A stretch of DNA of 32,845 nt from Opitutaceae bacterium (GTDB lineage: Bacteria; Verrucomicrobiota; Verrucomicrobiia; Opitutales; Opitutaceae). The DNA is taken from NCBI GenBank assembly GCA_002694885.1, contig NZNM01000102.1, positions 1 through 32,845 of the forward strand. Reading direction: 5' to 3'. Each line of letters opens with the position of its first letter. The first letter of the stretch is position 1. A program made the translations under genes and the position numbers. Below the pieces are notes generated by a model, which ran no database searches, had not been told where the DNA came from, and worked only from the letters and a program-made list of their open reading frames with translations. Positions 27,125 to 28,224 of this stretch are shown piece after piece.

Positions 27125-27511
27125 TCAGTTGGTAATATCGAATGTCGTGCTGGCTTCCCTTACCGGCAGGTACACTTCGTACCACTCCTTTTGTGCAGCG
27201 CTTCCCGCATAGTCCTTAAGAGCTTGCTCGTCCTTGAACTCCATGACGAATGCATGGGAACGATTGCCCTGAGCCTTGATCGAACGGATCCATACGCGAG
27301 TCACTCCGTCGTATTTTTTGGCGATCGTCTTGACGCCATCGAGAGCCTTTTTGATCTGATCCTCCGAAGCGTCGTCTTTCCAAGATACGGTGACAACGTG
27401 GATTACCGATTTTGGAGCGATCTTGCTGTCTCCATGGTGAGCGCCAAACGCGGTAGACACTCCCACGATCAAAAACAAGGCTCCGATAAGAGATAGAACT
27501 GATTTTTTCAT
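27125..27511 (-). CDS. Secreted Dabb (stress-responsive A/B barrel) domain protein
   Basis: 128 residues. Signal peptide about 1-23 (LSLIGALFLIVGVSTAFG). The remainder is one Dabb domain: VIHVVTVSWKDDASEDQIKK at 39-58 as the first strand and helix, a VTRVWIRSIK strand, HAFVMEFKDEQALKDY, and a C-terminal YLPVREASTTFDI. Dabb proteins are small dimeric ferredoxin-like barrels that bind hydrophobic or polyketide-like ligands; most bacterial secreted ones have no defined function. It is separated from the sulfatase by 123 nt and from the DUF5069 gene by 181 nt, with no link visible beyond location. Confidence 0.85.
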   Translation of the reverse strand: MKKSVLSLIGALFLIVGVSTAFGAHHGDSKIAPKSVIHVVTVSWKDDASEDQIKKALDGVKTIAKKYDGVTRVWIRSIKAQGNRSHAFVMEFKDEQALKDYAGSAAQKEWYEVYLPVREASTTFDITN

Positions 27512-27692
27512 ATGGATTTTGATTAACTAGGTTTTCTTAAAATGAGGCAACGTTTCCCTCGCCCCGGTTGATGAAATCAACGGCACATTTTATCAATCTA
27601 GGGGCCTGGGCAAGCAGAATAGGCATAGTTGATTCTCGCGACAAAGATGTAACGAAATATCTCCAAGTTGCCGAACTCCCGCCCACAAAAAG

Positions 27693-28145
27693 CTATATCC
27701 TTCCCTCTTCGATGCCGTAAACATCGAACAATACGTAGACCACGCGGCCCTGAGGGAAGTATTCAGGAATATAGCCTTCCAGGAACTCCTGCAATTCGAT
27801 CGGCATCTCGCTAATCCGCTTGCCACGCATCTCGTTGTTACAAGCTATGATCTCCCGACGCTCTCGTTGCTTGGCGTTAGACGCAATCCACTCGGCCACC
27901 GCTTCATCGTTGGCGCCGGTCGCCACGAACTCCTTGAAAGCGTCTGGCTTGACCTCCGCGAAACCGAAAAAGAAATTATCCAGCGGGCAATCGAAATGGT
28001 ATTCCCCATTCGTTACCGCTAACGCGGCCCGGCATTTGTCCAAGGTTCGCTTGGCGACTACATAGCCGGCTAGCGTTTCTCTTGGGCTAGCAGGATAGTC
28101 CTTGGCTAGGTCTAAAGCGAGTTCGTTGAGTCCAGATTTTGACGT
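27693..28145 (-). CDS. DUF5069 domain protein with no canonical start codon
   Basis: The reading frame from the stop at 27693 encodes a DUF5069-like protein: PRETLAGYVVAKRTLDKCRA, NGEYHFDCPLDNFFF, DAFKEFVATGANDEAVAEW and a C-terminal QGRVVYVLFDVYGIEEG. The homologous part begins before the first usable start (a TTG at 28041-28043) and extends up to TSKSGLNELALDLAKDYP. An in-frame stop lies at 28152-28154, and between it and the TTG there is no ATG, GTG or TTG. Position 28143-28145 reads ACG just where an ATG (M-S-K-S-G) would be expected. So either ACG is the start, the start has been lost by a T-to-C change, or the base is an error. Function of the family is unknown to me. With ACG the protein would be 150 residues. 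Confidence 0.68.
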   Translation of the reverse strand, partial: TSKSGLNELALDLAKDYPASPRETLAGYVVAKRTLDKCRAALAVTNGEYHFDCPLDNFFFGFAEVKPDAFKEFVATGANDEAVAEWIASNAKQRERREIIACNNEMRGKRISEMPIELQEFLEGYIPEYFPQGRVVYVLFDVYGIEEGRI

Positions 28146-28224
28146 GTTTAATTAGCGAATTGTCCGTTGCCTCTCACGGCAAACGAATTCGGCATCAATG
28201 CGATTGCCTTCGAAATCTCTCAAT

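Follow-up and report, generated by a model that had tools for sequence, protein, structure and literature searches.

The window, by which we mean the whole stretch of 32,845 nucleotides that was analysed, is contig C108 of a 3.68 Mb genome in 165 contigs (G000), and carries on its minus strand an open frame of 152 codons from stop to stop (28151-27693). This frame opens after TAA 28154-28152 and closes at TAG 27695-27693, and it encodes a member of the DUF5069 family, matching the Pfam profile PF16798 with 113.4 bits over frame residues 18-151 (gathering cut-off, 27 bits). Following the TAA, its codons read TTA AAC ACG (28145-28143) TCA AAA, and the first ATG, GTG or TTG is TTG 28043-28041, 34 codons 3' of the ACG. 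The features of the locus are as follows.

27693..28145, minus strand: DUF5069 coding frame, running for 150 codons from the ACG and closed by TAG (PF16798, 113.4 bits; one match in the genome)
28041..28043, minus strand: TTG, the first ATG/GTG/TTG of the frame; a start here would lose 34 conserved residues (sequence and orthologue alignment)
28143..28145, minus strand: ACG triplet where a start codon is expected (ATG occupies the column in 8/8 nearest orthologues, with equal spacing to ALDL)
28148..28195, minus strand: short out-of-frame ORF, ATG 28195-28193, 15 sense codons, TAA 28150-28148 (sequence)
28152..28154, minus strand: in-frame TAA two codons upstream of the ACG (sequence)

The sequence-only reading had placed a stop at 28152-28154 with no ATG, GTG or TTG between it and the ACG, and these coordinates hold on the minus strand; with the stop only two codons 5' of the ACG, no other in-register start is possible. 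The DUF5069 protein has no second match within its own genome. It resembles the PF16798 family and a solved relative, the uncharacterized protein 3OMD, in sequence and domain (61 bits to chain A over residues 10-109), and differs from the family in having ACG for ATG and in the replacement of three family-invariant residues. A structure prediction reached a mean pLDDT of 43.5, a quality insufficient for use, and a literature search on DUF5069 found no papers. A Dabb-domain gene and the DUF5069 gene (window 27125-28145) lie in tandem here; in the relatives L014 and L016 they are arranged head to head, and comparison of the region 5' of the ACG with the Dabb-DUF5069 intergenic sequences of two relatives gave no significant shared sequence (best shuffle fraction 0.063).

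A close orthologue is present in seven of the 10 other genomes of the genus, with 67-75% identity. One of the remaining three (G002) has only a 26% match, and the search of the ten gave no match in G003, which is 85% complete, and G010. As three of the ten thus have no close orthologue, the gene appears from its distribution to be dispensable within the genus. The named nearest relatives of the gene are records from the Opitutales, Opitutaceae and Puniceicoccaceae. An ATG stands exactly at the ACG column in all seven close orthologues of the genus and in a locus of a sister genus of the family (L172, also present as the named record L017, Puniceicoccaceae bacterium K14); the named records L012-L016 and L018 duplicate six of the seven loci, which were counted once. 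The claim that homology reaches up to the ACG was borne out, given that the eight nearest orthologues (L002-L008 and L172) read M, eight residues and ALDL, and the window T, eight residues and ALDL, without a gap. More widely, all 27 family loci examined (L172-L198, from a 100-genome sample of which 77 had a match) have an in-frame ATG close to the homologous start, although many are distant, down to ~32% identity, and their exact starts are less certain. It should be noted that in our alignment of 16 relatives each start was taken as the nearest ATG, so that all 16 have an ATG by construction; the codon listings are independent of this.

The ACG is therefore not an unusual codon kept among orthologues, ATG being found in 8/8 of the nearest. 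Its presence at a column otherwise occupied by ATG indicates that it is derived by a single T-to-C change, a transition, and comparison of the sequences identifies it as a singleton of this genome.

No stop or frameshift was found across the 150 codons of the frame, in which 61 of the 1350 possible single substitutions would create a stop; the absence of stops would put neutral divergence below ~0.15 per site. We wrote a branch model for this analysis (9 taxa, 138 codons, with the first 12 alignment columns excluded). On the window branch omega = 1 was rejected (2dlnL 17.7), with synonymous sites saturated and some estimates at their bounds, and omega showed no rise over background (2dlnL 1.8, with the same saturation). 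The method is noisy, as omega = 1 was not rejected for the ATG-bearing orthologue L006 in the same model, and the result is accordingly weak. In the comparison with 16 relatives, 43 columns are otherwise invariant; the window protein departs at four of them, namely the start, the W of IIAWNN (here C) and, in VWFDVYD, the W (here L) and the final D (here G). Of the relatives themselves, 15 depart at 0-2 such columns each; L179, the most distant, departs at 10. Three distant paralogues share the first of the two Trp residues; the two of them that reach far enough have F in place of the second Trp and E in place of the Asp.

Among genus-invariant columns the window protein departs at 9/90; the corresponding figures for four G000 control genes are 22/212 (TolC), 20/187 (T8), 11/87 (T10) and 3/77 (T6); in three of the four the G000 branch is as long as in DUF5069 or longer. 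We had considered an acceleration specific to loss of the gene and rejected it, as the long branch and the departures from invariant columns are matched in these three control genes. The gene thus evolves at the usual pace of its genome, like most of the control genes, and the three residue departures beyond the start are suggestive only. This pace, with the rejection of omega = 1 and the absence of any stop, led us to reject an old pseudogene, and any loss would have to be recent.

In a survey for further cases, we compared 0.96 Mb of G000 (60 stretches and the window) with 1.6 Mb of its single-contig relative G001, the DUF5069 pair itself lying outside this sample. The 542 reciprocal best pairs were reduced to 257 without antisense shadows, 239 of which had both 5' ends closed. 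Start codons were mutually aligned in 101 of 153 better pairs, in 82 of them ATG with ATG, and the surveyed pairs held no further change from ATG to ACG in G000. In 16 G000 genes homology began 8 codons or more ahead of any ATG, GTG or TTG; a sorting by eye gave 10 with a usable start shortly downstream, four fragments or partial matches, and two, encoding a TolC-family and a FemAB-like protein, that are near full-length and have no such start. The TolC-family gene (L138:2425-3750, minus strand, contig C39) has no ATG, GTG or TTG in the first 55 codons of its frame, and its protein scores 212.5 bits against TIGR01844, under the cut-off of 225. At one codon its orthologues carry CTG in eight of nine loci and TTG in the other; in one of the eight (G003) the frame has only 53 codons, and several loci offer an alternative start at an ATG or GTG further downstream. 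Judged from this conservation, the CTG is probably used as a start by these bacteria. The FemAB-like gene (L049:13227-14309, minus strand, contig C10) has its first ATG, GTG or TTG 76 codons into its frame, although its homology to G001 starts at codon 8; it matches TIGR03019 with 102 bits, below the cut-off. In G001 a small membrane-protein gene, which we take to be DoxX-like (L076:13837-14334, minus strand), has an ACG opposite a G000 ATG, with an in-frame GTG 16 codons upstream.

The best explanation of the DUF5069 locus, to which we give a probability of about one half, is that an otherwise intact gene recently lost its start codon, either by a fixed mutation or in a strain variant. The change confined to one genome, the intact frame and the orthologous starts are observed directly; that the change is recent and that expression is lost are inferred. 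An ordinary Opitutales DUF5069 gene would have had its ancestral ATG turned into ACG by one transition in this genome only; translation would then fall to trace amounts, leaving the gene at the onset of decay. Compared with its orthologues the gene does carry a disabling change, as the ATG is replaced and no standard start follows for 34 codons, and the three further departures at family-invariant residues, with three of ten genomes without a close orthologue, make a recent loss plausible. An error in the assembly would mimic this picture. The consensus of a metagenome-type assembly may be wrong at this base in an organism that itself has ATG: the ACG is one transition from a conserved ATG in a single genome, the assembly is split over its 165 contigs, and of 161 conserved genes, two have a broken frame in G000 and none in G001. 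However, two breaks in 65,286 aligned residues, which may be real, amount to ~1 per 98 kb of the coding sequence that was compared, so that an error at one given start codon should be rare, and we regard this explanation as unlikely. The two broken genes (L136:15931-16982 and L138:13377-14184) contain either sequence errors or are pseudogenes.

Also unlikely, in our estimate, is that the ACG serves as a weak start, the initiator tRNA pairing with a near-cognate codon at low expression. The intact and apparently constrained frame would agree with this, and the conserved CTG of the TolC-family gene, by which near-cognate starts probably occur in these bacteria, slightly raises the odds of such initiation; CTG is, however, an NTG codon and ACG is not. 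The 15-codon ORF that ends 2 bases 5' of the ACG is a possible source of reinitiation, and ribosomes finishing there could perhaps help. Against a working ACG stand its absence from all relatives examined, the lack of a Shine-Dalgarno core 5' of it and an ordinary predicted 5' folding (-4.3 kcal/mol, within the 0.0 to -9.9 kcal/mol of eight orthologues). Among 64 G000 genes whose starts are common to G000 and G001, nine carry a Shine-Dalgarno core between -20 and -4, compared with ~7 after shuffling (0.109 per gene); as such cores are no commoner than chance, there is little to offset a poor start codon. ACG initiates very poorly in E. coli, where the available part of a reporter study places it within a group at 0.1-1.5% of ATG, a value for the group (PMC6925171). 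Among the matches listed in a literature search on ACG starts in bacteria, no title concerned a natural bacterial ACG start. On a broader version, ribosomes of this Shine-Dalgarno-poor Opitutales lineage would be more tolerant of near-cognate starts than those of E. coli, and one relaxed rule would cover the DUF5069 ACG, the TolC CTG and the FemAB-like gene; we consider this improbable.

Gene callers limited to ATG, GTG and TTG would choose TTG 28043-28041 or omit the gene. As the first standard start codon in frame, this TTG could give rise to a shortened protein, but such a start would remove 34 residues including the DL..YPASPRETLAGYV segment, which is kept in the orthologues and partly in 3omd, so that the predicted loss of the conserved N-terminus was correct. 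The sequence-only reading had called for an alignment of orthologous starts; none of the eight nearest orthologues begins at the TTG, all having ATG at the ACG column instead, which rules out orthologues starting there and makes a shortened product very improbable. The reading's own set of options, a rare start, a recent start-loss or a base error, is supported as a set, and the evidence ranks these and eliminates none.

Near-cognate starts outside the NTG codons have precedents, such as infC, which starts at ATT. Chloroplast genes with ACG starts, some edited to AUG, are also described, in the available part of the source (PMC9845219). Like these, the window ACG differs from ATG by one base and occupies the homologous start position; unlike them, it is not conserved in relatives. 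Start-loss alleles and early pseudogenes are a familiar kind in bacteria, and the window gene resembles them in being dispensable and in lacking, in this genome only, a conserved ATG; it has no further disabling lesion.

The change of start codon is confirmed, yet it is an ordinary observation. A caller restricted to ATG, GTG and TTG would shorten or omit this DUF5069 gene. If the ACG does not work, the locus adds one more start-loss in a dispensable gene. A working ACG would be an example from nature of such a start in bacteria and, together with the TolC-family gene and its conserved CTG, would open start-codon choice in Shine-Dalgarno-poor bacteria to testing.
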